Positions 7,307-21,773 of a stretch of 21,773 bases of DNA are shown one piece after another. The stretch is from a virus. The notes below the pieces were generated by a model. The model saw only the letters and a program-made list of their open reading frames with translations. It did no database searches and had not been told where the DNA came from. The first letter of the stretch is position 1; the number at the start of each line of letters is the position of its first letter. The stretch spans positions 1-21,773 of the IMG/VR virus record IMGVR_UViG_3300010883_000576; one strand, given 5' to 3'. The translations under genes were made by a program, and so were the position numbers.

Positions 7307-7510
7307 ATGGGTATTTACGAAGTAATGAAAAATAAAAACGCAAACCCGGCGATAGGACCAAACCGAAATGAACTTGACGGTTCGATACGCTTTCGTTCAT
7401 CTTCATGGAATCCTAAGCTACCTTCAAAGGATGCAAAAGCAAGGCGGACCAAGACTAAGGGCGACATACGGGCGATGATGAAGGGCAAGGCCTCGGATGA
7501 AACAGTATAA
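7307..7510 (+). CDS. Unknown basic 67-residue protein
   Basis: A short protein rich in Lys and Arg (LPSKDAKARRTKTKGDIRAM in the second half) that I do not recognise. It starts eight bases after the previous stop and ends 14 bases inside the next gene. The ATG at 7300 was considered as a start but reads into a stop after 11 codons. The basic tail could bind nucleic acid; that is only inferred from composition. Confidence 0.65.
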   Translation: MGIYEVMKNKNANPAIGPNRNELDGSIRFRSSSWNPKLPSKDAKARRTKTKGDIRAMMKGKASDETV

Positions 7511-8150
7511 CTCAGCAGATGTAATACGAGATATACACACCATCATAGAAGAGTTCGACCAACTACAGAAAAGGCGATTGACATTCGACGATTTGTGTGC
7601 TATACTAGAACCAAAGAGAATCAGTATAGTGCATAGAAAAGAAGATAACAGGATACCCAAGTTTTACGCAATGTATAATGAGAATCTCACGAACACAAAA
7701 GCACCCGATGTCTTGGTCACAGTATCAGGACAAGAGAAACCAACGTTGCGATATATGAAACCTAAGTTTATGGAGCTACTAGCAGTAATCATCCACGAAC
7801 TGAAGCACAGACAACAAGCAATGCAGCGATATGGTATATGGGGGAAAGACTTTGTTGACATATGGTTTTCTGATTATCCACGAGACTTGTATTTGTATCT
7901 AGACTTCAAGGATAAACCCATCGATGAATGGAAGGGCTACTACGGACACAACGACGAAATAGATGCATACGCAATGGAAGCTGCGTTTATATGTTGGTTC
8001 GGAAACAAACCCTTGAACCTACAGGACAGTGAGACAAAGAGATACAAACAAGTGTTTGCAAACAACGAAACAGTATATAACCGATATCTAAAAAAGTTAT
8101 ATGGATATTTTATGATGTTTAACAAGGAAACAGCGAATGGCAAGAGATGA
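7497..8150 (+). CDS. Putative zinc metallopeptidase (HExxH protein)
   Basis: A 217-residue protein with a zincin-type motif in a hydrophobic helix: AVIIHELKHRQQ, with H100, E101 and H104. A possible third ligand lies in NDEIDAYAME, with E154, D156 and E161; HExxH proteins with a downstream E-x-x-A-Y-x-x-E helix are common in phages. No signal peptide or membrane segment is seen, so it would act in the cytoplasm. The start overlaps the previous gene by 14 bases and the end overlaps the next by 14 bases. Substrate is unknown. A consensus-like promoter lies inside its coding region at 7578-7606. Confidence 0.8.
   Translation: MKQYNSADVIRDIHTIIEEFDQLQKRRLTFDDLCAILEPKRISIVHRKEDNRIPKFYAMYNENLTNTKAPDVLVTVSGQEKPTLRYMKPKFMELLAVIIHELKHRQQAMQRYGIWGKDFVDIWFSDYPRDLYLYLDFKDKPIDEWKGYYGHNDEIDAYAMEAAFICWFGNKPLNLQDSETKRYKQVFANNETVYNRYLKKLYGYFMMFNKETANGKR
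7578..7606 (+). promoter_or_regulatory. Possible internal sigma70-type promoter
   Basis: TTGACA at 7578-7583 and TATACT at 7601-7606 have a 17-base spacer, inside the coding region of the HExxH protein. The match is good, but its position makes chance conservation possible. If active it would boost the genes from 8137 onward. Confidence 0.3.
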
Positions 8151-8316: not shown

Positions 8317-8749
8317 GTCATTTGATCACGTTGAATCGTCGGGATCGGAAACCCAATTTGACACAGGAAGTCAAAGAGATGCACGAGACGGCAAGGGTCG
8401 CTTTGATCTGATTCCCCCATATGCATTACATCGACTAGCAAAACATTTTGAAAATGGCGCAAGACGATATCAAGATCGCAATTGGGAGAAGGGACAGCCT
8501 CTAAGTGTATATCTGGATTCTGCTATTAGACACACAAATAAAGCATTGATGGGATTGAATGATGAAGATCATTATATCGCCGCCACATGGAACTTATTGT
8601 GTCTGGTAGAAACCAAAAAGAGAATTGAGTTAGGCATCTTACCAAAAGAACTAGACAACTTACCAGACACATATAAGGATCATGATCCCGATCCAAAGAG
8701 ACAAAACTACATTCTCGATAGTGCCGCAGTGGATAAGAGCCACAAATGA
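8309..8749 (+). CDS. dATP/dGTP diphosphohydrolase-like protein (DUF5664)
   Basis: A 146-residue protein matching the phage family annotated as dATP/dGTP diphosphohydrolase N-terminal (DUF5664). Signature segments are GKGRFDLIPP at 28-37, GARRYQDRNWEKG at 50-62, and the helix SAIRHTNKALMG followed by DEDHYIAATWNLLCLVE at 85-101, with His75, Asp87 and His88 as likely functional residues. The fold is related to all-alpha NTP pyrophosphatases. The expected role is adjusting or cleaning the deoxynucleotide pool during phage replication. It is coupled by an ATGA overlap to a DUF4406 protein, a pairing consistent with nucleotide metabolism. Catalysis by this short form is not certain. Confidence 0.85.
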   Translation: MAKSFDHVESSGSETQFDTGSQRDARDGKGRFDLIPPYALHRLAKHFENGARRYQDRNWEKGQPLSVYLDSAIRHTNKALMGLNDEDHYIAATWNLLCLVETKKRIELGILPKELDNLPDTYKDHDPDPKRQNYILDSAAVDKSHK

Positions 8750-9198
8750 GAACAGCATACATTAGCGGTCCCATAACGGGATACGAAAACCATAATGCCC
8801 GCAGATTTAATCTTACTGCTGGCCATGCTCGGAACAAAGGATACTCAGTTGTCAACCCAATAGAGTTAGACAAAAAAATAAAACCAGACGATGCATGGCG
8901 GTGGGAAGATTATCTCAAGCGGGACTTGGGGGAAATGTGTATGCATTGTAACTGTATTGTATTGCTGCCTAATTGGGAAAAGTCTCGCGGCGCTGTGCTA
9001 GAGGTTTTTGTCGCATGGATATTACAACTAGATATTATACTGGTGGACGAAGCGTGGATAAAGACCAAATCACCAGAGATACCGCGGCCCATTGGAGCAA
9101 TGAATATCCCGTTTCTCACTAAGCTAATGTCATCTATGTTCAAGTTCTTTCTTATCCGAGAGGCAATAACACAAGAACCAATATGTTCGAACCCATAA
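8746..9198 (+). CDS. DUF4406 protein, nucleoside 2-deoxyribosyltransferase-like
   Basis: A 150-residue protein with the DUF4406/nucleoside deoxyribosyltransferase pattern: YISGPITG at 5-12, GYSVVNP at 32-38, and VLLPNWEKSRGAVLEV at 72-87, where S80, R81, G82 and A83 form the substrate loop and E86 sits where the family's catalytic Glu lies. Such enzymes cleave or exchange the N-glycosidic bond of deoxynucleosides or their monophosphates. It starts within the stop of the DUF5664 gene (ATGA). The C-terminal 45 residues (from about 105) extend beyond the usual domain, with a hydrophobic stretch near MSSMFKFFLI. The exact substrate cannot be read from the sequence. Confidence 0.85.
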   Translation: MRTAYISGPITGYENHNARRFNLTAGHARNKGYSVVNPIELDKKIKPDDAWRWEDYLKRDLGEMCMHCNCIVLLPNWEKSRGAVLEVFVAWILQLDIILVDEAWIKTKSPEIPRPIGAMNIPFLTKLMSSMFKFFLIREAITQEPICSNP

Positions 9199-9968
9199 CC
9201 ATATCAGTAATCAATAATAATATATACCACATACAAACAAAGACACAATACCATCTGTCTTCTACACTTGTGCGAATATCAGAATTCTATGAGAGTAACC
9301 TGAAGGGGATTCGTGGGCGGTATTTCACCTATGAACAGTATGCGGATATATATGCCAAGAAGTATGGGAATTTTGATTATTTTCAACAATGGTGTGGATT
9401 CAACGTTCCTAGCAACGTACTACTGAAATTCATCGACAAGTTTTACATCAGCCCACCATCAGACAATGCAGGGCCATGGAACAAAGAGAGAGAACTGTTA
9501 GGAGTCATGGGTGTTATCAATCCTCAGTTGCAGCCATATCTTGACAAGTCGATTAACAGGTATATTATCAAACCATCCATTGATAAGTTCTATATGATTG
9601 GAACATACAAAGATGATACGTTTCATAGTATATCGCACAGACACGAGTTGGCTCATGCGATGTTCGGTGTTGACAGCGAATACAAGGCTAATGTGATGGC
9701 AGCATATGGAAAATGGAAAGATGGTAAATCCAGACGGATGATCCATCGCGCCATCAAGAATCTAGGATATCATGATGCAGTTTCAATAGATGAAATCAAT
9801 GCGTATTGTGCGACAGAGACCAAGACCATGTTGGTAGCGTCTTTGGGTATGGATAAATCTTTCATTCGCCCAAGAATTTTCAAGAATTTACTTGACAAAT
9901 ACATGAAAACAAACTATACTATAAATGTAACATACAAGATCAACGATAGTACTATTACTGAAATCTGA
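9183..9968 (+). CDS. Second putative zinc metallopeptidase (HExxH protein)
   Basis: A 261-residue protein with HRHELAHAMFG around 152-161 (H154, E155, H158) and a possible third ligand in SIDEINAYCATE (D203, E204). The layout of HExxH followed some 45 residues later by an acidic DEIxAY helix is the same as in the protein at 7497-8150, but the two share no other obvious similarity. There is no signal peptide. The start overlaps the previous gene by 16 bases. A promoter for the next gene lies inside its 3' end, and an 11-bp inverted repeat covers its stop codon. It closes the early-type operon. Confidence 0.75.
   Translation: MFEPITISVINNNIYHIQTKTQYHLSSTLVRISEFYESNLKGIRGRYFTYEQYADIYAKKYGNFDYFQQWCGFNVPSNVLLKFIDKFYISPPSDNAGPWNKERELLGVMGVINPQLQPYLDKSINRYIIKPSIDKFYMIGTYKDDTFHSISHRHELAHAMFGVDSEYKANVMAAYGKWKDGKSRRMIHRAIKNLGYHDAVSIDEINAYCATETKTMLVASLGMDKSFIRPRIFKNLLDKYMKTNYTINVTYKINDSTITEI
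9892..9920 (+). promoter_or_regulatory. Sigma70-type promoter for the winged-helix gene
   Basis: TTGACA at 9892-9897 and TATACT at 9915-9920 have the ideal 17-base spacer. The predicted transcription start is near 9927, about 130 bases before the ATG at 10058. It lies inside the end of the preceding coding region. Confidence 0.6.
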
Positions 9969-9976
9969 TCTTGTAT
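9932..9976 (+). promoter_or_regulatory. 11-bp perfect inverted repeat spanning a stop codon
   Basis: ATACAAGATCA at 9932-9942 is the exact reverse complement of 9966-9976, with a 23-base loop containing the palindrome ATAGTACTAT. It begins about five bases after the predicted transcription start and covers the TGA at 9966-9968. No T-run follows, so it is not a typical terminator. It could be a leader hairpin or an operator for the winged-helix protein. Confidence 0.55.
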
Positions 9977-10057
9977 AATGTGAATGATGAATTATGTCAC
10001 CGACGAATAATGCATCTTAAAATAATAAGTCGGTACTTTTGAAAGGATTTGGTACAC

Positions 10058-10273
10058 ATGGCGACCAAGACACAGAACCAGAAAATTCGTGATTACTTGT
10101 TTTCTGGTAAGACCCTGACAGCCCCACAGGCAGATAACCTGTTCGGCGTCAAAAATATGCGCGCTCGTATGAGTGAGGTTCGCGAACATCTCGCGAAGTA
10201 TGGCAACTATGAAGTTGTCTCGAAGTCCACAGCCACCACTGGTGGGCTACGATACAGCATCTCTGCTGTATAA
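10058..10273 (+). CDS. Small winged-helix DNA-binding protein
   Basis: A 71-residue protein made of a single winged helix-turn-helix domain. The first helix is QNQKIRDYLF at 7-16, the HTH pair is TAPQADNLFG at 21-30 followed by VKNMRARMSEVREHLAKYG at 31-49 (recognition helix), and the wing is YEVVSKSTATTGGLRYSI at 51-68. I start at the ATG at 10058, not at the upstream TTG, because AAAGGA at 10042-10047 is well spaced for it. The gene is a stand-alone unit with its own promoter and a terminator, which suggests strong independent expression. It may regulate phage transcription or its own promoter, which carries a long inverted repeat. A perfect 7-bp inverted repeat (TTCGCGA/TCGCGAA, 10179-10197) lies inside the coding region. 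Confidence 0.85.
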   Translation: MATKTQNQKIRDYLFSGKTLTAPQADNLFGVKNMRARMSEVREHLAKYGNYEVVSKSTATTGGLRYSISAV

Positions 10274-10276
10274 ATA
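10269..10276 (+). promoter_or_regulatory. T4-type late promoter match overlapping a stop codon
   Basis: TATAAATA, an exact match to the T4 late consensus, overlaps the TAA stop of the winged-helix gene. Transcription from it would begin near 10282 and run into the terminator at 10335-10368, giving an RNA of roughly 85 bases with no ORF. It may be a chance match created by GTA-TAA-ATA. Confidence 0.35.
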
Positions 10277-10277
10277 A

Positions 10278-10326
10278 CGACAGTAACTACTGTCGGCTGT
10301 GCTGACAACAAGAAGAACAGCACAGC
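10278..10326 (+). other. Two adjacent hairpins in the 3' untranslated region
   Basis: Hairpin 1 is CGACAGT at 10278-10284 pairing with ACTGTCG at 10289-10295, loop AACT. Hairpin 2 begins at the next base: GCTGTGCTG at 10296-10304 pairs perfectly with CAGCACAGC at 10318-10326, with a purine-rich loop of 13 bases. They directly precede the terminator hairpin, so the transcript end carries three consecutive stems. They may protect the mRNA 3' end or form a small RNA. Confidence 0.6.
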
Positions 10327-10334
10327 GTCTCGCG

Positions 10335-10368
10335 AAAAGCGGGGATTCGCAAGAGTCCCCGCTTTTTT
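10335..10368 (+). terminator. Intrinsic (rho-independent) terminator
   Basis: AAAAGCGGGGA at 10335-10345 pairs perfectly with TCCCCGCTTTT at 10356-10366 (11 bp, GC-rich core), followed by a T-run ending at 10368. The loop TTCGCAAGAG can alternatively pair with CTCGCGAA at 10329-10336, a possible competing structure. It separates the winged-helix unit from the late-type genes. Confidence 0.92.
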
Positions 10369-10373
10369 GCACA

Positions 10374-10381
10374 TATAAATA
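10374..10381 (+). promoter_or_regulatory. T4-type late promoter for the giant-gene operon
   Basis: An exact TATAAATA just after the terminator. The predicted transcription start, about six bases beyond the motif, coincides with the ATG of a 12-codon mini-ORF at 10387. It implies that the 75-residue protein and the 2342-residue protein are expressed late, with the virion genes. Confidence 0.7.
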
Positions 10382-10386
10382 ATCAT

Positions 10387-10425
10387 ATGGCGTCCCCAAC
10401 CCATCAGATAACCAATTGGATTTAG
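10387..10425 (+). CDS. Possible leaderless 12-codon mini-ORF
   Basis: ATG at the predicted +1 of the late promoter opens a 12-codon frame (MASPTHQITNWI) that stops at 10423-10425, four bases before the next ATG at 10430. It could be a leader peptide translated from a leaderless end and feeding ribosomes into the next gene, which has only a weak ribosome-binding site. Equally it could be untranslated leader; evidence is positional only. Confidence 0.3.
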   Translation: MASPTHQITNWI

Positions 10426-10429
10426 CATT

Positions 10430-10657
10430 ATGGTAGTGTCATTCAAAGAATATTATCTGACAGAGAACGTGTTACAACGACTAATAGATAAACACGACAA
10501 CCCGCTTGCATTCGCGAAAGATGCAACCGAGATGATGCGAAAAGGTACGCTGAAGCTGAAGGAACGCGGTGCGTCCAACATGCGAGAGTTGATACGCATA
10601 TTCTACATACGCAAGAAGGGCGTGGAAACACGAGTGAAAGAGAGAACCATAGAATGA
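10430..10657 (+). CDS. 75-residue late protein with capsid-targeting-like N-terminus
   Basis: I know no family for the body of this basic protein (ATEMMRKGTLKLKERGASN, then MRELIRIFYIRKKG). The N-terminus, MVVSFKEYYLTEN, resembles the capsid-targeting sequence of T4 internal head proteins, with LTE at residues 10-12 in the place of the cleaved glutamate. It lies first behind a late promoter and overlaps the giant gene by ATGA, so the two are likely co-translated. A role as a small packaged or head-associated protein is inference from this N-terminus and its neighbours. Confidence 0.8.
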   Translation: MVVSFKEYYLTENVLQRLIDKHDNPLAFAKDATEMMRKGTLKLKERGASNMRELIRIFYIRKKGVETRVKERTIE

Positions 10658-11469
10658 AAACGTTCCACCAACATAGCACACTAGACGAAAAGTTTGAGAC
10701 AGTCATACGAGTGTCCGCCGGAACGGAAGTACTGACTGTTCCTATCTACAAGAATCCTTCACGAAAAGAGTGGCGAGAACTGGTACAGAACAAGGATGTA
10801 CCGCTTCGCTTTACGGGTGACGGGACTGTTCGTGGCATCATGGACAAGAAAGGTGACATCTGGACATGGAGTGCTGCGAATGCGTTACACTTCCAAGTGT
10901 GGACTAAGCTTCAGATGCGAGCAGAAGAGATTGTGACATTCTCCGTTGCTTATGGGGAAATTGAATTTCTTAGACATCCGGTAAAATGGCAAAAGAAAGA
11001 CGTTGCGACACTGTGGTCTACCAAAGCCCAGAAGAAATTTCCGTGGATAGATAAAATCTCTCGGCAGTATGAATACGAAGAGTTCGACAGCTTCATGAAG
11101 GTAAGGCGATTCGATGAACTGGTTCCCATCTACAAGAATCCTACTCGAAAAGAGTGGAAAGAACTAGAGCAGAACAGAGATGTTCCTAAAATGTATCGCG
11201 GCGTGAAAGCGATTCGCGGGATCATGGACAAGAAGGGCGATGTATGGACATGGAACGCAATGAACGCACTGCACGACCAAGTAAAGAGCCATCTGAAACT
11301 CGGTTCGGATAATGTAAACTTCTCTGTGGAAGTTGGAGTGATAACGTTCTACTATGATCCGCGACCAGGCGGATGGAATAACAAAGACATAGACAAGCTA
11401 TGGCTGTCCAAGGTACAAAAGAAATACTCATGGATAGATGATATCTCCATGGATGGATTGATCGGAGAA
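10654..11469 (+). repeat. A-module block of the giant protein (2 copies)
   Basis: Residues 1-272. The IYKNP starts are 128 residues apart and are followed by [RK]KEW[RK]EL, RGIMDKKGD[IV]WTW, an invariant His (H79, H207) and a WxxK-x-QKK closing segment. The block ends at LIGE272|A273. Confidence 0.9.
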
Positions 11470-14400
11470 GCAGCAGAACCCCGCGACTATCTCAAATATG
11501 GTCATCACGGACCCGATAGTGTGTTGTGGTGGGCGACAAACGTATCTGATATCAAGATGATAACACTGAAAAAGGCAAGTGAAAAACTGGGCATAAACAC
11601 AGATGAAGTAAATCATGATGGTCTTGTAGAGTTGGATGGCTTAGATATATTGGATGTGTTTAGTGGAAGAATAGACATAAAGCAAAAAGTGATTACAGGT
11701 GTAGGGATGCTCGGGCGAGAAGCGGTGCTAAAGAGTATTACAAAGCGTATAGCACGAAAACCAAAATACAGAGATTTCCGTATAGCAGTATACCACGGAC
11801 TCAATCCAGAATGGTTGGACGAAGGACTAAGGTATGAAGGCGAACCCGGTGCGCCGGGAGAGTTTTATGAGTACGGACACGACTCACCGACTGACTATTT
11901 GTGGTGGGCTAACAACGTATCCGACATAGACATGATGACACTCGCCAAGGCAGGTAAGAGAACCAATGACGTACCGGGCGAAGTAACACACTCTATGCTA
12001 TTGAGTAAGAATATGTTAGGTGTCACCGATGATGTAGATGATATATACAAAGGTCGCATAGACCTAAAGAAAAAGGTGATCACGGTTGTTACTAAGTGGC
12101 AAGGTAGAGATGCAGTATCAAAGAGCATAGCAAATCGCATCGCAAAGAATCCTAAGTTCAAAGACTTTCGCATAGCCCTGTATACTGTCAATGGGGATGA
12201 GTATTGGGTCAACGAAAACAAAATCAACGAACGCCTTGAACCCGGTTCATATATCGATTATGGTCATACATCACAAAAAGATATGATATGGTGGGCTAAA
12301 AATACACATGACATCAATATAGTAAATGTGAAAAAGGCAACCGATGATATGTTGGTTCCTAGAGGAACACATCTAACCCATTGGAATATATTTAAACAGA
12401 ATGCTAGTGAGATGCTGAAACACTACACGGGTCGCATCGATACAGAGAAAAAGGTGATCACGATTGTCAAGGCGGGAAATGGTAGAGACGCGGTTGCGAG
12501 AAGCATAGGTAAGGCAATCACGCGGAAAAAGGAATACCGAGACTATCGCGTAGCGTTGTATATCGGAGGGTTGCCGGTGTGGTTGGATGAGTCCACAATC
12601 AAAGAGCGCCTCGAACCGGGGTCGTATATTGACTACGGACACTTCCATGCATATGATTACATATGGTACGCTGATTCCATTGCGGATATCAAGATCGGAA
12701 AGTTGGAAGATGTTGCAGTAGAGCTAGGTAGAAAGAAAAGCGACTGGCACAGTGTTACACATGGAAGTTACACAGGAAACAGACACGTAAAATACTCTGG
12801 GCGCATTGACATGGACAAGAAAACCATAAGCCTTCAGATTATGGTTCAGGGTAACGAGCGAGTAGGTAAGAGCATAGCAAAGGCTATCCAGCGAGACAAA
12901 AAGTTTCGAGACTTTTCTGTCGCGATGTTCGGTGGTGGATGGGGGAAAGCAGAGTGGATGGACGAAGCACGCCAGATTAAAGCATGGACCGAGTATGGAC
13001 ACAGTTCACCAAAAGATATGTTATGGTGGGTTGGAGAAGGTGGTGAATTAAATATTATGTCTGCCGAGGAAATCTCAGAAAAAATAGACGGCGAGAAATC
13101 AAATAATGGTTGGAAGAATGTGAATCATCTTTATGCAATAGAAATCAGCGATGGTAGTGATGCAACACGCCTGTCATCATATGGAAGAGTTGATCATAAA
13201 CAAAAGATCATCACTGCTACAACCAACACCGATAATATAACGGGAGAACGCCGCGCGATCCTCTTTGCAAAGAGGGTCAATAAAAAATACAGGGACTATA
13301 GCATCCTCTTCCATGGAAGCCCAGATCAAACCAGATTCGTCAACGAAGCCCGCCGCGCTGGCGAGTGGTTTGACTACGGACATGGATCACCAAAGGATAT
13401 GCTATGGTGGATTGACGATGATGGTTCGGTACAAATAAAAACAACCGAGGAAATTGGCAAAGCAGGATGGCAACGCATTACACACAGCAACATTAGTCCC
13501 CCCGGTGGTCTGACTTCATATGGGAGAATAGATCACAAGAAGAAGGTTATCACTACCAGAAATGCTGGTGGTAGTATCATAACGTCGGACAAGAGAGCTA
13601 CTGTTGCTGCCAAGAAAGTCCAAAGAAAATTCAAGGACTATGACATCATTCTCTTTAAGGTTGGTTGGGGTAGTGCCGAGTTTGTCAACGAAGACTTCGC
13701 AGCCATGTTCAAACCGCCGTATGACGCATCATCACCCCCAATAATCATATACAAAAATCCGACATCACGAGAACTTCGTGAGTTGCTATCCGAGAACGGC
13801 AAAGAGATGCGATGCCTTGCAGACACAAAATCAGATGATATATATCTATTCATTTCCAAAGCGACTCATGCCGATGCACAAAAATCAATGAGAGCCGAAG
13901 GTGTTGAGAATGTTTCGAGACTCATGGAGTTGTATGTTACATTCAAAGGAACCGTCGCATCCAAGGTAGTCATATCATGGACTGCTGCTAATGCAGTATC
14001 CGCGAACCCTACCGAGAAAATATACAAACAGCTATGGAAGAAGGTATCGAAGAACCGGGGACTTGCCAAGCTGATGAACGCAAAGACAGAGGTATGGGAT
14101 AACAACACGGTATACAAACTCAACGAAGAGTTTGTGACGATGATAAAGAGTAAATGGCGACCAGATGTAGTCGTATCTATATACAGGAATCCGTCACCCA
14201 AAGAAATCAAAGAGGCATTCGCAGAGTCTCAACACAAAGAGGAATTGAGAGCGTTAGTCGATCCCCGATCCAACAACATATTCTTATTCTCTGATCAGAT
14301 GTTGCATCGCGATGGTGTACTTGCCCTGAAGAAAGAAAGCTACCCCGGCGATAGCATGGTTCCGATATATATATTATTCAAGGCTGGAAATTTCAGGAAA

Positions 14401-17400
14401 GCAGTCCATATCCGCATGTCATCAACAGTGGCGTATGCCGGAAACTTCGATAGTGATGTAGATGCATGGGAGGCTATATCCAAGAACAAGGGAATTCGTA
14501 GGCTCATGGATGGGGACACCGAGGTATGGGACGCATACTTAAATGATAAAATTGTCGTCGAAGAATTCACGACAATGATAAAGAATCCGTGGGACAAGTC
14601 GGCGGAACCTGCATCCATATACAAAAACCCGACAACGAAAGAGGTCAAAGAGGTATACAGAGAATCATCAATCAAGGGAGCAGTGAGAGTATTGGCTGAT
14701 CCCAAGTCGAATGATATGTTTTTGTTTCCTGATACCATTATACATCACGATGCGGTGGTCGCACTAGCCAAAGAAGGAGTGCCGTCCCGCCATATGGTTG
14801 AGTTGTATATCACGTTCTCAGCCGGAAACTACAGGATTGCAGATGAAATAAAGATATCTGGTTCTGCTGTTAACTCTAGTGTGAATCAACGGAAGTTGTG
14901 GGATAGTATCAAAAAGAACAAGGGGCTTAACAAATTCATAGACAAGAACACGCTGGTATATGACACACACTATACCATGAACATGAACGAAGAGTTCACG
15001 ACAATGTTCAAGAGTCCGTTTCCGGGCAAGCACGCACCCATATCCATATACAAAAACCCTTCATGGAAAGAGGTAAGAGAGATACTTGCATCGGCTAGAT
15101 TAAATGAGATGCGTGGACTTCTCGATATGAAGACAAGTAGTATATACATGTTCAACGACCAAGTTATACATGCTCATGCGAAGGGCGCATTGGAAGATAT
15201 GGGCATACGAGCCGATCCGTTTATCCCGATATATCTTGAGTTCATGGGGGGGAAAGCTGTACCAGCAGATGTATTACGATTGTCATCGGCTGGTGGGGAG
15301 GCATGGGGTTACGAAGATGATGCCGATGTATGGCCGAAGTTCATAAAAAACCGAGGACTCAAGAAACTAATAAACAAAGACACGATCATCGTGGATGGGT
15401 TCAATGATGAGGTTAAGTTAAAAGAAGAATTCGCGATATCATTCAAGAATCCGTTCAATGCGGATCAAGTCGTATCCGTATACAAGAATCCGACAAGCAG
15501 AGAGATACGAGAGATACGCGCCGAAGAACCATCAGGGAGTAGGTCAAACACGTTGCGAGCATTCGCAGTTCCCGGTGGGAAGGATATATATGTATTCAAT
15601 TCATTTGTGTTGCATCATGCTGCACGTATGCACATGCGACTAAATGATATAAAAAACACAGGGAAGATGGTAGAAATATACCTCGTGTTCTCAAGCACCA
15701 ACAGGACAACCGACGAAGTATCATTGTCTTCATCGACTCTTCGAAACACTACAGGTTCATATGAACTAGACTCACCTAAAAGTATATTCACACCGATGTT
15801 CGCGAAGGTGTGGTCTACTATTAAAAACAACAAGGCATTGAAAAGCCTTATGGGTAAGTCTACGAAGGTGACTGACTTCAATGACAATGAGGTAGTCAAC
15901 GAGGAATTCGAGGCGTTCTTTAGTAAGAAAAATATGCCTTTTCGATTCGGCTTATCGCCTGAGTCCGACTTCCCCAAGGACTTACCTATCTACAAGAATC
16001 CAAAGAGCCGAGAGTTCAGAGAGCTACGCAAAGACGCGGCGCAGAATGGTTGGGATGGAGAGGTAGGGGGAACCGGGAGAGTAGCGAAGACATTGATCGA
16101 CATGAAGACACTAGATGTATACATGTTCCCCGGACTTCCCTTCCACGAAGCCGTGGCAAACCAGTTGTGGCCAGGCAAGCGTATTGAGGATGTTGCTATT
16201 GTAGGTTGGATTGCTCATGACAAACGGGCTTTGGTGAATATCCAAAACGATAAACAACAAACAATCATAGAAAAACCCTTTTCAAAAAACAAACTAAAGA
16301 AAAAAGTACCTTGGGTGGATTGGAGTAATGTAGACAGCGAGTTATTCTTTGAGGAATTCAAAGACTTCTTTAGCAAGAAATATGGTCCGAATAGATTTTC
16401 TGGTGATCCGTCATTCCCTAAGACACTACCGATCTACAAGAACCCGTCAAGTAGAGAATTCCGAGAGCTAAAAAAAGAAATACGAACGAATAAGTGGGGC
16501 CCTGAATCATGGGATCGTCTTTCAGGTGATCCAACCGTCACCATCAAAATAGTTGTTGACCTGAAAAAATTTGATGTGTACATGTTCCCCGGCTTGCTCT
16601 TTCACGGCCATGTATCCGATCAGATGTTAGGTAAGGCTAACATACAAAGTTCAGGTATGGGATGGATAGATAATACAGGCACTGCGAAGTTCCGCAACTA
16701 CGAGTTAGACACACTGGCGCGTGGTGTCGATGATCTACAAAAAAATGTATCGTGGGTTGATTGGGAATCTGCCGTCAAGACAGGGGTAATGAACGAGAAT
16801 TTCGAAGACTTCTTCAATCCGACATTCATGGGGTCGGGGATGGCTAAAACATTCCCCAAGACGCTTCCGATATACAAGAACCCTACCAGTAGAGAGTTTC
16901 GGGAATTGATACATGACACACGAAGCAATCAATGGGGTCCAGAGGACTGGGATCGCCCAAAGGGTGACAAGAAATTTGAAATTAAGATAATCATCGACCT
17001 AAAGAAAGGTGATGTGTATATGTTCCCCGGTATCATTTTCCACACCGCAACCCAAAATCAAGTGGGACTTGGTCATTTTGATACTATTCATGGATGGATA
17101 TCTCCTATGAGAAAGGTGATGGTTCGCGACACAAGAGACATCACAAATATCGAAGAAGTCAGAACAAAACTAAACAAAAAGGTTCCGTGGGTTGATTGGG
17201 ATAAAGGTGTCGGTAAGCTATGGGAGTCTGATGTAGTCAACGAGAAGTTCGAGGATTTCTTTGACAAGAAACACATGGGACCGCCGATCAGCAGAGACTT
17301 GTCATTCCCCAAGGACTTGCCTATCTACAAGAACCCGTCAAGTAGAGAATTCTCGGAGATAAAACGAGACGCGAAGAGACACCAATGGGGCGGAGAGATT

Positions 17401-17682
17401 GCAAGTCAGGTGTCAGAGAAAGCAGCAAAGATATTCATCGACATGAGAACAATGGACGTATACATGTTTCCCGGTCTCGTTTTCCATACCGCTGCATTTC
17501 AACAGATAACAGGACGTAGCCGAGGCATGTTCGATGATGATGCAGTAGCAGGCTGGGTGTCATCCCAAGCCGTGCCGCGTATCATACCGGGCCCTGGCCA
17601 TGCCGAGGATGTAGAAGCCAAGATAGACAAGTTACGTAAAAAAGTCTCGTGGATGGACTGGGATCGAATGCGAGTAGATTAA
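10654..17682 (+). CDS. Giant 2342-residue modular protein, candidate internal-head polyprotein
   Basis: The protein consists of 17 tandem modules and no other domain. Two A modules (IYKNP at 31 and 159) are followed by six B modules (YGH at 282, 407, 536, 661, 781, 908), five C modules (IYKNP-type start at 1032, 1176, 1322, 1465, 1609) and four D modules (1779, 1927, 2073, 2224). A, C and D share IYKNP-x(3)-E-x-[RKS]-E, a D-x-[KR]-type turn with an [IV][YFW] strand, and an invariant His. B modules share YGH, an invariant His, GR[IV]D-x(3)-K and a basic helix ending DY/DF. Each module is preceded by a hydrophobic-x-Glu linker, for example LIGE|A, WLDE|G, WLDE|S. The N-terminus is MKTFHQHSTLDE, like a capsid-targeting sequence. 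The last module ends exactly where a linker would begin. There is no signal peptide, membrane segment or coiled coil. A fibrous structural protein is the main alternative. Confidence 0.85.
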   Translation: MKTFHQHSTLDEKFETVIRVSAGTEVLTVPIYKNPSRKEWRELVQNKDVPLRFTGDGTVRGIMDKKGDIWTWSAANALHFQVWTKLQMRAEEIVTFSVAYGEIEFLRHPVKWQKKDVATLWSTKAQKKFPWIDKISRQYEYEEFDSFMKVRRFDELVPIYKNPTRKEWKELEQNRDVPKMYRGVKAIRGIMDKKGDVWTWNAMNALHDQVKSHLKLGSDNVNFSVEVGVITFYYDPRPGGWNNKDIDKLWLSKVQKKYSWIDDISMDGLIGEAAEPRDYLKYGHHGPDSVLWWATNVSDIKMITLKKASEKLGINTDEVNHDGLVELDGLDILDVFSGRIDIKQKVITGVGMLGREAVLKSITKRIARKPKYRDFRIAVYHGLNPEWLDEGLRYEGEPGAPGEFYEYGHDSPTDYLWWANNVSDIDMMTLAKAGKRTNDVPGEVTHSMLLSKNMLGVTDDVDDIYKGRIDLKKKVITVVTKWQGRDAVSKSIANRIAKNPKFKDFRIALYTVNGDEYWVNENKINERLEPGSYIDYGHTSQKDMIWWAKNTHDINIVNVKKATDDMLVPRGTHLTHWNIFKQNASEMLKHYTGRIDTEKKVITIVKAGNGRDAVARSIGKAITRKKEYRDYRVALYIGGLPVWLDESTIKERLEPGSYIDYGHFHAYDYIWYADSIADIKIGKLEDVAVELGRKKSDWHSVTHGSYTGNRHVKYSGRIDMDKKTISLQIMVQGNERVGKSIAKAIQRDKKFRDFSVAMFGGGWGKAEWMDEARQIKAWTEYGHSSPKDMLWWVGEGGELNIMSAEEISEKIDGEKSNNGWKNVNHLYAIEISDGSDATRLSSYGRVDHKQKIITATTNTDNITGERRAILFAKRVNKKYRDYSILFHGSPDQTRFVNEARRAGEWFDYGHGSPKDMLWWIDDDGSVQIKTTEEIGKAGWQRITHSNISPPGGLTSYGRIDHKKKVITTRNAGGSIITSDKRATVAAKKVQRKFKDYDIILFKVGWGSAEFVNEDFAAMFKPPYDASSPPIIIYKNPTSRELRELLSENGKEMRCLADTKSDDIYLFISKATHADAQKSMRAEGVENVSRLMELYVTFKGTVASKVVISWTAANAVSANPTEKIYKQLWKKVSKNRGLAKLMNAKTEVWDNNTVYKLNEEFVTMIKSKWRPDVVVSIYRNPSPKEIKEAFAESQHKEELRALVDPRSNNIFLFSDQMLHRDGVLALKKESYPGDSMVPIYILFKAGNFRKAVHIRMSSTVAYAGNFDSDVDAWEAISKNKGIRRLMDGDTEVWDAYLNDKIVVEEFTTMIKNPWDKSAEPASIYKNPTTKEVKEVYRESSIKGAVRVLADPKSNDMFLFPDTIIHHDAVVALAKEGVPSRHMVELYITFSAGNYRIADEIKISGSAVNSSVNQRKLWDSIKKNKGLNKFIDKNTLVYDTHYTMNMNEEFTTMFKSPFPGKHAPISIYKNPSWKEVREILASARLNEMRGLLDMKTSSIYMFNDQVIHAHAKGALEDMGIRADPFIPIYLEFMGGKAVPADVLRLSSAGGEAWGYEDDADVWPKFIKNRGLKKLINKDTIIVDGFNDEVKLKEEFAISFKNPFNADQVVSVYKNPTSREIREIRAEEPSGSRSNTLRAFAVPGGKDIYVFNSFVLHHAARMHMRLNDIKNTGKMVEIYLVFSSTNRTTDEVSLSSSTLRNTTGSYELDSPKSIFTPMFAKVWSTIKNNKALKSLMGKSTKVTDFNDNEVVNEEFEAFFSKKNMPFRFGLSPESDFPKDLPIYKNPKSREFRELRKDAAQNGWDGEVGGTGRVAKTLIDMKTLDVYMFPGLPFHEAVANQLWPGKRIEDVAIVGWIAHDKRALVNIQNDKQQTIIEKPFSKNKLKKKVPWVDWSNVDSELFFEEFKDFFSKKYGPNRFSGDPSFPKTLPIYKNPSSREFRELKKEIRTNKWGPESWDRLSGDPTVTIKIVVDLKKFDVYMFPGLLFHGHVSDQMLGKANIQSSGMGWIDNTGTAKFRNYELDTLARGVDDLQKNVSWVDWESAVKTGVMNENFEDFFNPTFMGSGMAKTFPKTLPIYKNPTSREFRELIHDTRSNQWGPEDWDRPKGDKKFEIKIIIDLKKGDVYMFPGIIFHTATQNQVGLGHFDTIHGWISPMRKVMVRDTRDITNIEEVRTKLNKKVPWVDWDKGVGKLWESDVVNEKFEDFFDKKHMGPPISRDLSFPKDLPIYKNPSSREFSEIKRDAKRHQWGGEIASQVSEKAAKIFIDMRTMDVYMFPGLVFHTAAFQQITGRSRGMFDDDAVAGWVSSQAVPRIIPGPGHAEDVEAKIDKLRKKVSWMDWDRMRVD
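11470..13692 (+). repeat. B-module block of the giant protein (6 copies)
   Basis: Residues 273-1013, spacing 120-129 residues. Each copy runs YGH-x(5)-[DS]-x-[LI]W[WY], an invariant His (H321, H446, H576, H703, H825, H944), GR[IV]D, K[VIT]I[TS], a basic helix and [DK]D[FY]. A stand-alone copy of this module is encoded at 20336-20710. Confidence 0.92.
13693..15903 (+). repeat. C-module block of the giant protein (5 copies)
   Basis: Residues 1014-1750, spacing 143-146 residues. Each copy starts after a [LVM]xEEF- or VNEDF-type linker with Phe/Met and Lys, then IYKNP, an [IM][YF]xF strand, an invariant His (H1072, H1218, H1364, H1506, H1654) and a closing KNxxLxxLM-like helix. Confidence 0.9.
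15904..17679 (+). repeat. D-module block of the giant protein (4 copies)
   Basis: Residues 1751-2342, spacing 146-151 residues. Each copy has EF-x(2)-FF after the linker glutamate, FPK[DT]LPIYKNP, DVYMFPG, an invariant His (H1831, H1984, H2130, H2278) and KK/QK[KN]V[PS]W[VM]DW at the end. The final copy ends right after this segment, where other copies continue into a linker. Confidence 0.92.
16432..17352 (+). repeat. 30-bp identical direct repeat between D modules 2 and 4
   Basis: Bases 16432-16461 and 17323-17352 are identical for 30 bases over the IYKNPSSREF segment, 891 bases apart. Other module starts encode the same residues with different codons, so this identity suggests recent duplication or gene conversion. 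Confidence 0.85.
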
Positions 17683-17685
17683 ATA

Positions 17686-17713
17686 TTGACACACGCCCCT
17701 TTTATGGTATAAT
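17686..17713 (+). promoter_or_regulatory. Consensus sigma70-type promoter before the DUF6267-like gene
   Basis: TTGACA at 17686-17691 and TATAAT at 17708-17713 have a 16-base spacer, the same geometry as the promoter at 5189. It begins three bases after the giant gene's stop. The predicted start near 17720 leaves a leader of about four bases before the ATG at 17724. Confidence 0.8.
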
Positions 17714-17723
17714 AAGAGAACAT

Positions 17724-18902
17724 ATGCTAACAGGATTCTCCCACTACGAACCACGAGACCAGATAAACGAAGCAGGTAAGGTGCTACACCTAGACCATAT
17801 CGAAGACTTGGCTTTCTCGTTGTCATCGTCTGCTGACTCAGGACCAAGTGACGCAATCGCATTCTTTCGTGCTATCGAAGAGATGCTGCATGGAAGTGCG
17901 CCCAAGTCATCCAACATTTCTGTCAAGTGGGATGGAAGCCCTGCTATCTATGCAGGCATCGACCCGGAGACAGGAAAGTTCTTCATCGGAACGAAATCTA
18001 TCTTCAACAAACGAATACCGAAGCTAGGATTCACAGCAGCCGACATCAAAGAACACTACGGACACAACTCAGGACTTCTCGCAGTGTTACTCGCTGCATA
18101 TCCTATTCTAAAACGTATCCCTACTGCAAAATGGAAGGGTAGCTTCTTTCAGGGTGACCTGCTGTTCACACAAAAAATGCTCAAGGACAAGACGATAGAC
18201 GGAGAGCCACATACCACATTCCAACCGAATACGATTGTGTATGCAGTATCCCAGAAGAATAACCCTAAGTTGCACGCAGCCGTTCTTGCAGCCACAATAG
18301 GTATTGCATGGCACACGATGTACGAATCAGATACAACTGTTGCAGATTCTTCCGCGTCTGCTGTTTCTCCGAAGAACAGCCCTCAGAGTACTGCTGTGTT
18401 CTCTCCGCCTTCTCCACAAATCCGCGATCTATCAGGTACGGCTTCGCTAACAAAACAGGAATCTAAGATTCTAGACAAACTACTCAAGAAGGCGTCACCT
18501 AAGATGAAGAAACGTCTAGGAGCAAAGAGCGCCTCCGCCCTTCAGATATTCCTCAACGTACCAGAGACATCCGGAGATACCATAAAGACTGTTGCGGTGT
18601 TTACCGCTGCATTCGTCGCACATTATGCAGGGAAACACAACGGAGAACAGCCACCAGAGCTACCACATCCACGAGACGTACAGAATTGGATGCTCTTCTC
18701 TCGCATCAAAAAGATACTACTACAGAAAATGAACAAGATACAGAGCCTTCCTTCGTTTCTACAGAAGGACAACGGATTCGTCGTGACTCCACCAGAAGGA
18801 TTCGTCATATCAGATACGGTATCAGGAAACATTGTGAAGCTGGTAGACAGACTAGAATTCAGTAGAGCAAACTTTAACATCAACCGAGGACGTAATAAAT
18901 AG
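17724..18902 (+). CDS. DUF6267-like protein with nucleotidyltransferase/ligase motifs
   Basis: A 392-residue protein resembling the T4-like phage family DUF6267. I read ligase-superfamily motifs in the right order: motif I VKWDGSPAIY with candidate nucleotidyl lysine K68, a following strand FFIGTKS (86-92), motif III-like SFFQGDLLF (140-148), motif IV EGFVIS (358-363) and motif V IVKLVDR (370-376). About 200 residues lie between motifs III and IV, including a Ser/Pro-rich stretch around 205-235 and helices. The start at 17724, not the in-frame ATG at 17649, is chosen because the latter lies inside the giant gene upstream of the promoter. The N-terminus ends its first segment with INE16|A17, a perfect prohead-protease-type site. 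Enzyme activity is inferred from motifs only. Confidence 0.85.
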   Translation: MLTGFSHYEPRDQINEAGKVLHLDHIEDLAFSLSSSADSGPSDAIAFFRAIEEMLHGSAPKSSNISVKWDGSPAIYAGIDPETGKFFIGTKSIFNKRIPKLGFTAADIKEHYGHNSGLLAVLLAAYPILKRIPTAKWKGSFFQGDLLFTQKMLKDKTIDGEPHTTFQPNTIVYAVSQKNNPKLHAAVLAATIGIAWHTMYESDTTVADSSASAVSPKNSPQSTAVFSPPSPQIRDLSGTASLTKQESKILDKLLKKASPKMKKRLGAKSASALQIFLNVPETSGDTIKTVAVFTAAFVAHYAGKHNGEQPPELPHPRDVQNWMLFSRIKKILLQKMNKIQSLPSFLQKDNGFVVTPPEGFVISDTVSGNIVKLVDRLEFSRANFNINRGRNK

Positions 18903-18915
18903 AGGAAACTATATT

Positions 18916-19284
18916 ATGAATATATCAACAACACGAGAAGAGGATATCATTACCACCACACTCCTGACATGGGAGATAGAATGGTACAAGACCCATATTC
19001 CCGAAGACTTCAAACCATGTATCGCTCGCCTTTGCCGCCAAGCACTGTTCTGTAACAGAGATCGTGTAATCCAATACAAGAAGAAATTTGACGATGCAGA
19101 CTTCAGAGGTATGGACTACTCGCGACAAGATATGCTGTCAGAGGCAGACAGAGGACTGCTATCCAAAGAAGAGCTAGAATACTATGATGAATGCGGCGAT
19201 CATGACTCCGGAGAACCTGAAGTGTGTATGCTCGATCATCTTGTATCGTTGATCAACCCCGCTATTATAGAGGAAATTAAATAA
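18916..19284 (+). CDS. Unknown 122-residue protein
   Basis: No family recognised. AGAGGAAA precedes the ATG by about eight bases. The first half looks helical with paired Cys (CIARLCRQALFC), and the second half is acidic (SKEELEYYDECGDHDSGEPE). It contains five cysteines (residues 35, 40, 46, 92, 104), unusual here, but they do not form a standard zinc motif. Its TAA stop shares a base with the next ATG, so it is coupled to the paralogous pair downstream. It lacks the capsid-targeting-like N-terminus of its neighbours. Confidence 0.75.
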   Translation: MNISTTREEDIITTTLLTWEIEWYKTHIPEDFKPCIARLCRQALFCNRDRVIQYKKKFDDADFRGMDYSRQDMLSEADRGLLSKEELEYYDECGDHDSGEPEVCMLDHLVSLINPAIIEEIK

Positions 19285-19652
19285 TGGAAAATAATGAAAT
19301 CAACGCAGGAAAGACGTATTATTGTATATCGAGTACCATCAAGGATTATCAAGGAGACGATTCAATGATGACACTCGAAGCCATCCAGCCGTATAATTGG
19401 AGAATAGATTGTCGCCCGGAGACATGGAAGCTGCTACCTATTGATACATTGTGGGAATTCTACGAAGTCGTGAAGGATGGAAACTACGCGCCCGCACAGC
19501 GAGGAATAGAAGCAAAACACGTTCATCCAAGTAAGATAGAATGCATCCTGACCCGCATGGCAGATATCATCGAAGAGAAGAACGAACTAGACAAGACATA
19601 CAAACAACTGGTACGCCACATCGACACAGTAGACATAAGGAAGGCTCTATGA
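19284..19652 (+). CDS. Unknown protein, first of a tandem paralogous pair
   Basis: A 122-residue protein starting MENNEINAGKTYYCIS. The start resembles MKNNEIIAGKTYYHIR of the next gene, and the C-terminal halves also align (PSKIECIL...EKNELDKTYKQLVRHID against PTQIMCLG...EKRRTLGDRQVALQNKMDHL), so the two arose by duplication. The N-terminal part reads like a small beta-rich domain and the end like a helix or short coiled coil. Function is unknown. AGAGGAAA precedes it, and it is coupled on both sides by one- to four-base overlaps. Confidence 0.8.
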   Translation: MENNEINAGKTYYCISSTIKDYQGDDSMMTLEAIQPYNWRIDCRPETWKLLPIDTLWEFYEVVKDGNYAPAQRGIEAKHVHPSKIECILTRMADIIEEKNELDKTYKQLVRHIDTVDIRKAL

Positions 19653-20035
19653 AAAATAATGAAATCATTGCAGGAAAAACGTACTACCACATACGACCAA
19701 ATCACTGGGCTAAGCCCATTGTATCGATCATCGAGTTAGTCCCCCACCAACCAGTTGATCGCTATGGGATCGACCGGGCACATTCCGTTAACATATTCGA
19801 CTTCACCGATAACATCCATTGGGACTTCAAAGAGTATTACGGAGAAGGCGAAGAAGACTACGAGATGAATTACTATCGAATCTCCGAGGTATACCCTACT
19901 CAGATTATGTGTCTCGGAGCCAACATATCGAATATACAGGAGAAACGAAGAACCCTTGGAGATCGCCAAGTCGCTCTTCAGAATAAAATGGATCATCTCT
20001 ATAACCTTCATGTTGGAGACATCACGAAAGCATAG
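19649..20035 (+). CDS. Unknown protein, second of a tandem paralogous pair
   Basis: A 128-residue paralogue of the preceding gene. I start at 19649 and not 19541, because this ATG overlaps the previous stop (ATGA), follows AAGGAAGG, and gives an N-terminus matching the paralogue (KNNEIIAGKTYY). It has an acidic central insert (YGEGEEDYE) that the first copy lacks. No function can be assigned. A fragment resembling its first codons recurs at 20041. Confidence 0.82.
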   Translation: MKNNEIIAGKTYYHIRPNHWAKPIVSIIELVPHQPVDRYGIDRAHSVNIFDFTDNIHWDFKEYYGEGEEDYEMNYYRISEVYPTQIMCLGANISNIQEKRRTLGDRQVALQNKMDHLYNLHVGDITKA

Positions 20036-20040
20036 CCACA

Positions 20041-20064
20041 ATGAAAAATAATCACAAAGTATAA
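20041..20064 (+). pseudogene. Seven-codon remnant of a third paralogue start
   Basis: ATGAAAAATAAT at 20041-20052 is identical to the first 12 bases of the gene at 19649. The frame continues only to MKNNHKV and a TAA that lies inside the late-promoter motif. It may be the scar of a third tandem copy or a chance A-rich match. Confidence 0.35.
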
Positions 20065-20067
20065 ATA
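20060..20067 (+). promoter_or_regulatory. T4-type late promoter with start codon at +1
   Basis: An exact TATAAATA in the 37-base gap between genes. The ATG of the next gene (20073) is six bases beyond the motif's last base, the usual transcription start, and there is no ribosome-binding site between, so the mRNA would be leaderless. Confidence 0.7.
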
Positions 20068-20072
20068 ATAAC

Positions 20073-20339
20073 ATGACTAAGAGCTATAAAGAAATACTGG
20101 AAGAAGCCAAACAATCGAGCAAGGCGGCTTCTGTACAATCCAAGAAGGATTTCGTGAAATCTGTTCAAGCCAAGTATGGCTCTACTACCCGCGAAGTCGA
20201 CCCGGAAGAGTATCCGGAACGAAAGGGACTCGAAGGACCATTTCGGTTCAAGAACGGACAGGTATTATATTATGATGCCAAAGAGGGATCGTACTACGAC
20301 TCGAAAAAAGACCACTTCGTAGAGCCACCAAAGCAATGA
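20073..20339 (+). CDS. 88-residue late protein with capsid-targeting-like N-terminus
   Basis: The first residues, MTKSYKEILEEA, resemble the T4 internal-protein targeting sequence MKTYQEFIAEA, and LEE11|A12 fits the prohead-protease consensus exactly. The rest has a basic helical part (KAASVQSKKDFVKSVQAKYG) and a Tyr-rich C-terminal part (GQVLYYDAKEGSYYDSKKD) that I do not recognise. It is first behind a late promoter and apparently leaderless. The stop overlaps the next start (ATGA). It is probably a head-internal or virion protein, by inference. Confidence 0.8.
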   Translation: MTKSYKEILEEAKQSSKAASVQSKKDFVKSVQAKYGSTTREVDPEEYPERKGLEGPFRFKNGQVLYYDAKEGSYYDSKKDHFVEPPKQ

Positions 20340-20710
20340 AATCATTCATCGAACTAATTACCGAGATACAAAAAAAGCCCCTTACGTACTTTGACATAGG
20401 GTTCAATCCGAAGACGGATGAAGATGTCGAGCTTTGGTATATAGAGCGAGGAAAGTTCGAGAGCTTCAATCTGACCGTCGAGTCTGTCGAGATGGGAGAC
20501 AGAAACCATTTCATCGACGACCTTGACTGGTCGGGAAGAGTAGACCATCGGACGAAGATGGTATCGATTACAGGGCGTGGTCACGACGATGACGTTGTCG
20601 GTCGAGCCAAGCTAGAAGGAATGAGAAAGAGAATCATCAGAGAACTATCGAGCGTGAGAAACTATCGATTCTTCTCGTGGGACGAATCAGGATATGTAGA
20701 GATACTTTAA
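20336..20710 (+). CDS. Stand-alone B module with its own targeting-like N-terminus
   Basis: A 124-residue protein. After MKSFIELITE, residues 17-116 align with the B modules of the giant protein: TYFDIG (17-22) for SYIDYG, an LW in the next helix, an invariant His (H58, in RNHF), SGRVDHRTKMVSIT (66-79) for YGRIDHKKKVIT, a basic helix MRKRIIREL, NYRFF for DYRVA, and a final WDES for WLDES. The YGH histidine is replaced by Phe23. This shows that the module folds alone and that the giant protein is a concatenation of it and others. ITE10|I11 is a partial match to the protease consensus. It is coupled to the gene before it by ATGA. Confidence 0.85.
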   Translation: MKSFIELITEIQKKPLTYFDIGFNPKTDEDVELWYIERGKFESFNLTVESVEMGDRNHFIDDLDWSGRVDHRTKMVSITGRGHDDDVVGRAKLEGMRKRIIRELSSVRNYRFFSWDESGYVEIL

Positions 20711-20728: not shown

Positions 20729-21085
20729 ATGGCAATGAAGACAATACAAGAACTACGAGAAGCATCAACCGACAAAAACCCTTCCTCTGCGAAAGCCAAG
20801 AAAGCTATGGCTGATATGGTCAAGATGGAAAAGGAAATCGACAAGTTCATCAAGACTGCATCCCCTGTTCTAAAGAAATGGAAGATGCTGGAAAAGCAAT
20901 CCGATGACATATTTGGTAAATTTAATAAGTCCAATCGCATCAAGCCTGCTGATCCCCGCGATGTGGCAAAGTTTGCGAATGATGAGGCAAGGGCTGCATG
21001 GAAGCGACTCGGTGCAGCCACCGATAGATTACAGTCTCTTGAAGACCTTCTTCCTGATCTTGTGCAAGGACCAGGGCAACATTAA
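20729..21085 (+). CDS. 118-residue Lys-rich helical protein with capsid-targeting-like N-terminus
   Basis: It begins MAMKTIQELREA; LRE11|A12 is a full match to the prohead-protease consensus. The remainder is Lys/Ala/Asp-rich and almost entirely helical (KAKKAMADMVKMEKEIDKF, then ARAAWKRLGAATDRLQSLED), consistent with a short coiled coil, and similar in size and composition to T4 internal proteins. AAGGAT precedes the ATG by about eight bases. No enzyme motif is visible. The role as a packaged internal protein is inference. Confidence 0.8.
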   Translation: MAMKTIQELREASTDKNPSSAKAKKAMADMVKMEKEIDKFIKTASPVLKKWKMLEKQSDDIFGKFNKSNRIKPADPRDVAKFANDEARAAWKRLGAATDRLQSLEDLLPDLVQGPGQH

Positions 21086-21179: not shown

Positions 21180-21773
21180 ATGGGAAATATTAGCGGAAAT
21201 CAGAGGAATAAGAGTATATTGGAGTCTATCGAGAGGATCAGCGAGGCATCGGCGTCATCAGCGACAGACGAAGGACTGTTCGGTAATCCAAACAAACGAC
21301 CAACACCAAAGGATATTGAAGCGGCTCAGAAAACCTTGAAGAATGCTTCATTACACCTAAGCCCTGACGCGGAAAAGAAATTCATGAAGGGGAGAGATGC
21401 AGCACGCGATGTGCTTAAAGCCGCTGGATGGAGTAAGAGCAAGATATTTCAGTTAATGATGGGACCTAAATCAAAACAACGCAACGAATCTGAGGACTCT
21501 GCGAAACACCAATCCCGCCGAGATGCAGATAAAAAGGACGCCAACGCACGAAGAGCCGCAGGAAACAAGAAGTACCGAGGTTCTCGCAGTTTCTCAGAGT
21601 TCAATGCATGGAAGAGGTCTCAGCAGTCTCAGATGGTCTCAGAGGCAAGTGAAATGATCAAGACAGGCATTCAGATGGTCGCAGGTATCAAGATATATGT
21701 CAGTTCTATCTCTGGTGGTTCTCACTGGGGATATGCATGGAAATCGAAGGATGGCAAAGAACATTACGAGGAA
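21180..21773 (+). CDS. Partial protein with two targeting-like segments (3' end cut by window)
   Basis: A frame open from the ATG at 21180 to the window edge (198 residues), preceded by AGAGG. The N-terminal segment RNKSILESIERISE22|A23 ends in a perfect prohead-protease-type site. A basic linker follows (99-136, rich in Lys, Arg, Ser). Then comes a second segment of the same style, SFSEFNAWKRSQQSQMVSE155|A156, leading to a new domain (GIQMVAGIKIYVSSISGGSH, then WGYAWKSKDGK). It therefore looks like at least two units joined by a targeting/cleavage-like linker, a small version of the giant protein's plan. No family is recognised for either unit. Confidence 0.82.
   Translation, partial: MGNISGNQRNKSILESIERISEASASSATDEGLFGNPNKRPTPKDIEAAQKTLKNASLHLSPDAEKKFMKGRDAARDVLKAAGWSKSKIFQLMMGPKSKQRNESEDSAKHQSRRDADKKDANARRAAGNKKYRGSRSFSEFNAWKRSQQSQMVSEASEMIKTGIQMVAGIKIYVSSISGGSHWGYAWKSKDGKEHYEE

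Follow-up and report, generated by a model that had tools for sequence, protein, structure and literature searches.

What a bacteriophage might gain from a single protein of 2342 residues made of repeated domains is the question raised by IMG/VR virus record IMGVR_UViG_3300010883_000576. The record is identical with the window analysed here, a stretch of 21,773 bases, and derives, as a fragment, from a T4-like phage close to the cyanophage/pelagiphage group (Kyanoviridae). The giant protein is encoded on the + strand (10654..17682) by an open reading frame (ORF) with no internal stop, whose product would have a mass of ~268 kDa, a pI of 9.1 and one Cys. The reading that we favour, at somewhat better than even confidence, is that tandem genes for internal head proteins have fused to encode one core-targeted precursor, which the prohead protease would cut into cargo proteins.

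Alignment and profile comparison divide the protein into 17 modules in the order A2-B6-C5-D4 with no domain left over, in agreement with a preliminary description of this DNA that had found whole modules only. The N-terminal MKTFHQHSTLDE (10654..10689), a proposed capsid-targeting propeptide ending at Glu12 and aligning with the N-termini of single-module relatives, is followed on the same strand by modules A1 and A2 (residues 13–142 and 143–272; 10690..11469), B1–B6 (residues 273–1013; 11470..13692), C1–C5 (residues 1014–1750; 13693..15903) and D1–D4 (residues 1751–2342; 15904..17682). The proposed cut sites are E272, 390, 521, 646, 771, 898 and 1013 for the B modules, E1013, 1158, 1303, 1446, 1591 and 1750 for the C modules and E1750, 1900, 2048 and 2197 for the D modules, and cutting at all joints is predicted to give mostly basic pieces of 115–159 residues (12.9–17.9 kDa). 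Modules A, C and D belong to one family (‘YKNP’; mutual hhalign probabilities of 96–98%) marked by [I/V]YKNP[S/T]xxE and a conserved His. Module B, with its YGH...GRID fold (YGH..., H, YxGRID), has no sequence link to A, C and D; within families the modules share 25–50% identity. Separate translation of the modules from internal starts was rejected, a Shine-Dalgarno-like sequence being found near only one of the 16 junctions.

A hydrophobic-x-Glu motif is present at 16 of the 17 module starts of the giant. Shuffling residues within modules (5000 trials) placed such a motif at a mean of 1.9 of the 17 starts, with a maximum of 8, counts that are not independent because the modules are paralogues; the fair statement is thus that two unrelated module families have the same border motif. 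The preliminary description had put a linker with this motif before every module, which holds for all starts except the A1/A2 joint, where the hydrophobic residue is missing (EYE142|E), and the sites that it listed agree with the sequence (IGE272|A, LDE390|G, LDE646|S, MDE771|A, VNE898|A, VNE1013|D, LNE1158|E and VNE2197|K). In an alignment of 34 YKNP modules the boundary Glu is invariant, the only other invariant columns being N, P, E and H (five in all), and position P3 before this Glu is L, I, V, M or F in 33 of the 34. The same border is found before unrelated folds, namely the B modules, a lone B gene of the window (MKSFIELITE|I) and the DUF6267 protein encoded downstream of the giant.

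Relatives were sought with an alignment of the YKNP core from all 11 A, C and D modules; they are few, all fragments, and E-values for such short motifs are soft. YKNP modules were found on six IMG/VR viral contigs, as single-module genes and as two-module fusions, and a profile search identified tandem runs of YKNP genes in three whole records with 4, 12 and 17 module matches (33 in total). The T4 IPIII signal reads MKTYQEFIAE|A, in which residues 4 and 7 are those mainly used for targeting and residues 8 and 10 those used for cutting (PMC9026906, for the residue roles). Many single-module YKNP genes have T4-like targeting starts: MLHSFSQYIKE|KY, MIKSFNRYIKE|KW, MKSYKQYINE|KW, MIETFKQHLAE|KY, MIKSFSQYISE|KW and MTIKEILTE|TF. 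The strict targeting pattern occurs in 10 of 26 YKNP array genes as against 3 of 79 replication-region genes (Fisher p 3e-5), and MKTFHQHSTLDE of the giant retains K-T-F and LDE with two extra residues between them. Eight fusions retain hydrophobic-x-Glu at the joint (IDSFKSYIRE|KW, SDIKSFLNE|AY, EIISE|KF, ALQE|KY, IVGE|KW, SILE|SF, FVE|EW and VNE|EF), the first two of them with a nearly whole internal targeting sequence. The simplest reading of these sequences is that the linkers of the giant would be remnants of the start signals of formerly separate genes. On the contig labelled L090, a different protein (2165–3286; start MNIDKAFKILKEELLLE|G, WCIT motif) is fused to a YKNP module via KVNE|EF, so that the joint motif also joins unrelated partners. 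A striking expansion of paralogues is seen in two YKNP arrays that reach contig ends, L094 8272–18379 (~13 genes) and L093 1–5553 (~9 genes).

The YKNP genes of these relatives keep company with head genes. In L090 the order is terminase, YKNP genes, portal and head maturation protease (phrog_207, E 3e-39), in L089 YKNP genes lie upstream of terminase and portal, and in L093 and L094 they adjoin tail-like and baseplate-like genes (assigned by eye) and a DNA end protector. The head protease of L090 is separated from later head genes by a region (8519–10659) that resembles a bacterial sensor kinase, and a chimeric assembly is possible there. All four of the cultured relatives that were checked have Gp23 and gp21 (PF03420), and the gp23 maturation sites expected by analogy with T4 read FLSE|A, FLGE|I, MLNE|V and LLGE|A. 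Two proteins of relatives at the gp22 (scaffold) position start MLNE|KFEEF and QLDE|KFSASF, to which the linkers VNE|KFEDFF and LDE|KFETVI of the giant are nearly identical.

The signals before the giant gene are in keeping with a late transcription unit. An intrinsic terminator (10330..10371, +; minimum free energy −27.8 kcal/mol, z −6.7, followed by a U run) divides the upstream genes from this unit, and next come an exact copy of the T4/cyanophage late-promoter consensus TATAAATA (10374..10381, +), a gene for a 75-residue protein with a loosely targeting-like N-terminus (MVVSFKEYYLTE...; 10430..10657, +) and the giant itself, whose start overlaps the stop of that gene (ATGA). In T4 the late promoter is TATAAATA; for S-PM2, NATAAATA has been published as the late promoter (PMC2984593 for the latter). 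The window holds three exact copies of TATAAATA, all intergenic and on the + strand, against a chance mean of 1.2 for both strands; since 8 of 100 shuffles also gave three, the number of copies is weak by itself and it is their position that counts. Late expression of the giant gene would fit this arrangement.

Taken as a mechanism, our preferred reading would begin with late expression of the giant gene. The N-terminal targeting sequence, perhaps aided by the targeting-like linkers, would bring the giant as a whole into the prohead's scaffold core, where a protease of the T4 gp21 type, acting in trans, would cut after the Glu of each hydrophobic-x-Glu linker to give about 17 folded proteins. 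The released modules would remain with the DNA and enter the next host, where they would most likely form a diversified panel of host-defence inhibitors. T4 IPI* inhibits a restriction enzyme, and by analogy with it counter-defence is our best guess for the activity of the modules, whose divergence fits a panel directed against varied targets. What the data show directly is how the giant is built from modules, the Glu at their borders, the kinship with single-module genes that carry targeting sequences, the two-module fusions as intermediates, the match to the late-promoter consensus and the gene context. Targeting of the giant protein to the head is well supported; cutting at its linkers we infer, and with it entry into the core, packaging, injection and a counter-defence role. 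Opinion is evenly balanced on whether the giant would be a true cargo polyprotein, in which one targeting event loads 17 diversified proteins at a fixed 1:1 ratio, the prohead protease frees them in trans and the linkers are repeated elements for core binding and release.

A number of observations weigh against the proposal of a head-targeted and processed precursor. Several YKNP array genes fail the strict targeting pattern, which around the DUF6267 genes of cultured relatives shows a weak enrichment that is not significant (8/66 vs 3/66, p 0.10), and the spacing in the N-terminus of the giant differs from that of the T4 sequence. The start of A2 lacks the hydrophobic residue. Only three of the five strict [LI]xE|[AGS] sites of the giant are at junctions, the others being IKE1187|A within C2 and LWE2191|S, six residues ahead of the D4 junction. 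No head protease was found within the 21.8-kb window, an absence explained by the window being a fragment. In the YKNP modules the residue after the Glu is mostly K or E and not one of the small residues of the consensus used in the preliminary description. This doubt is largely removed, since the residue after the Glu varies in DUF6267 orthologues and at the capsid sites of the relatives, and since the head proteases of giant phages are reported to have few cleavage determinants other than Glu (PMC9026906). The E-[K/E]-[F/W/Y] string could also reflect the structure of the domain, and a perfect extended sigma-70 promoter (17686–17713; TTGACA-16-TATAAT with TG, 12/12) lies between the stop of the giant and the likely start of the DUF6267 gene, so that the neighbourhood is not purely late.

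These points bear on four other explanations. A giant that is targeted to the head and stays uncut between modules would be a string of 17 domains whose linker Glu residues are relics of the targeting sequences of separate genes, or whose N-terminal propeptide alone is removed. Fusion of array genes would leave such relics without continuing use, and SPN3US packages many uncut head proteins (PMC10052503). Unused relics should, however, decay over 16 joints, whereas Glu and the hydrophobic P3 residue are kept at nearly every joint despite drift in the rest of the linker, and we regard an uncut string as unlikely. A role for the boundary Glu in the structure or active site of the YKNP domain, alongside the other invariant residues N, P, E and H and not as a protease site, is suggested by the Glu being conserved equally with the motif residues and by the model of this domain (module C2 and 33 homologues; a confident alpha/beta structure, pLDDT 92), in which it is the last residue before strand 1 and E-[K/E]-[F/W/Y] runs directly into that strand. 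The B fold, the DUF6267 protein and the lone B gene nevertheless have hydrophobic-x-Glu at the same border without the aromatic residue, and in single-module genes the Glu ends a T4-like targeting sequence, which makes this explanation distinctly doubtful.

Outside the head, the giant could be a cytoplasmic early or middle protein of the infected cell (a repeat scaffold, a replication-linked factor or a host-takeover factor) rather than a virion component. It adjoins genes for DNA polymerase, uvsX, helicase and RNA ligase, and the sigma-70-type promoter lies directly downstream; against this, the terminator and late promoter stand immediately upstream, the relatives of the modules occur among terminase and portal genes and the N-termini are targeting-like, so that we hold a cytoplasmic role to be quite improbable. 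It is scarcely credible that the giant is a repeat-built tail fibre or some other extended protein on the outside of the virion. The giant is indeed long and repetitive and some YKNP arrays adjoin baseplate-like genes (by-eye assignments in L094), but PHROGs and Pfam gave no match to fibre, adhesin or tail families, and the modules, compact alpha/beta domains judging by the YKNP model, are also found as single genes with targeting sequences.

The processed precursor that we prefer has its closest likeness in the T4 proteins IPI, IPII, IPIII and Alt, in which a 10-residue targeting sequence ending in Glu precedes small, often basic proteins and is cut by gp21, with constant signal and variable cargo (PMC9026906, PMC3012670), the cargo being described as diverse defence proteins (PMC3012670); the late-promoter consensus at the giant adds to this likeness. 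In T4, by contrast, there is one gene for each protein, whereas the giant has 17 domains on one chain with the motif at each joint, and no T4 counterpart was found for its module folds. Polyvalent proteins of phages and conjugative elements (Iyer et al., 2017, PMC5512222; including the P1 DdrB and N4 vRNAP types) are likewise multi-domain chains thought to be delivered with DNA, were likened by their authors to RNA-virus polyproteins and include very large phage proteins of the sort that gave the best viral-model matches to module B. They have 2–15 unlike, often enzymatic domains, whereas the giant has two module families, each duplicated, and no enzyme domain in PHROGs or Pfam; where release has been proposed for them, a peptidase domain of the chain itself is held responsible, whereas no peptidase, such as a self-cutting polyprotein would carry, was found in the giant, all 17 segments of which fall in the two module families, and the proposed cutter is the prohead protease. 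The T4 core proteins gp22, gp67 and gp68 are also cut into fragments by gp21 (PMC5694885), and in two relatives the scaffold starts with a sequence like the linkers of the giant; degradation of the T4 proteins yields short fragments, which exit the head, whereas the pieces of the giant would be folded domains that stay. The head paralogue families (ejection proteins) of SPN3US and phiKZ are expanded sets of internal proteins, with trimming after an A-x-E or S-x-E motif in some members (PMC5694885, PMC10052503), and differ in having separate genes and long propeptides; a sequence relation to the giant was looked for via PHROGs and Pfam only.

The preliminary description had interpreted the giant as a polyprotein cut by the prohead protease and without precedent among phages. 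Its first part gains support for head targeting from the T4-like signals of single-module relatives, the fusions that keep the signal at the joint, the late promoter and the head-gene neighbours. The claim of no precedent was too strong in view of the polyvalent proteins (PMC5512222) and the multi-site cutting of T4 core proteins (PMC5694885). A phage polyprotein released by the prohead protease was not found in the open-access literature searched. Should our interpretation be correct, the giant protein would be the phage counterpart of an animal-virus polyprotein and would offer a simple route to a larger arsenal of delivered proteins without a new signal having evolved for each. To our knowledge, loading of many head-delivered proteins at a fixed ratio via one targeting signal is undescribed in phages. 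YKNP and B would be two families of probable head-delivered proteins and candidate counter-defence proteins, and single genes with signals, arrays, two-module fusions and the 17-module chain form an evolutionary series.

Searches for the identity of the modules returned little. With E as high as 10, the whole giant and single modules matched none of 50,697 phage records beyond short alignments at chance level; initial scans of viral contigs, scans of viral and genome contigs with module B and the scan of genome contigs with YKNP were empty, and no module was detectable by a neighbour-gene approach at 80 DUF6267 loci. PHROGs and Pfam hold no family for the modules, and a 2OG-Fe oxygenase identity (E 2e-5, below the cut-off) was rejected, as no stretch passes alone and the match depends on module D's FPG...FH string. 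For the YKNP model, Foldseek gave no significant match in PDB or among viral models. Module B was modelled from 7 sequences with a pLDDT of only 77, and its three best viral-model matches in Foldseek are very large phage proteins (prob 1.00, 0.96 and 0.93; E 6e-4 to 0.04), of which one bears the name RadC-like JAB protein and another is annotated with a large polyvalent protein associated domain. The resemblance of the YKNP and B models to gelsolin/ADF domains is weak (VIA Z 4.0 and 6.2, below trust level).

The other genes of the window include a DNA polymerase that is 52% identical to its S-PM2 counterpart over the full length, UvsX, a gp41-type helicase, RNA ligase and DUF6267/phrog_455, whose relatives are mostly from Synechococcus and Prochlorococcus phages and in some cases from Pelagibacter and Methylophilales phages. 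The DUF6267 protein (17724..18902, +; PF19782, E 1e-69) has the N-terminus MLTGFSHYEPRDQINE|A and likely starts at ATG 17724 rather than GTG 17649; its orthologues have short variable N-termini with a Glu immediately before the domain and D, S, Q or A after it. Two proteins upstream of the giant that lack a family match contain a zinc-peptidase-like HExxH, at 7497–8150 (HELKH) and 9183–9968 (HELAH), and they are conceivable as alternative processing enzymes. Further downstream, a second TATAAATA (20060..20067, +) precedes two targeting-like genes, 20073..20339 (+), for an 88-residue protein with the T4-like N-terminus MTKSYKEILEE|A, and 20336..20710 (+), the lone B gene, whose product is a stand-alone B-like module (E 4.5e-7 to the B model when scanned by itself; G, W, H, GR.D and K columns in common) behind its own targeting N-terminus; both clearly carry a signal like M-K-[S/T]-[F/Y]-x-x-[F/Y]-[I/L]-x-E, as do many single-module homologues. 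The adjacent small genes 19284–19652 and about 19649–20035 have similar starts (MENNEINAGKTYYCI and MKNNEIIAGKTYYHI) and are probably a tandem duplication. Loosely targeting-like N-termini also occur at 20729–21085 and 21180–21773 (MKTIQELREA and ...SIERISEAS), and this end of the window may hold a cluster of head-delivered proteins.

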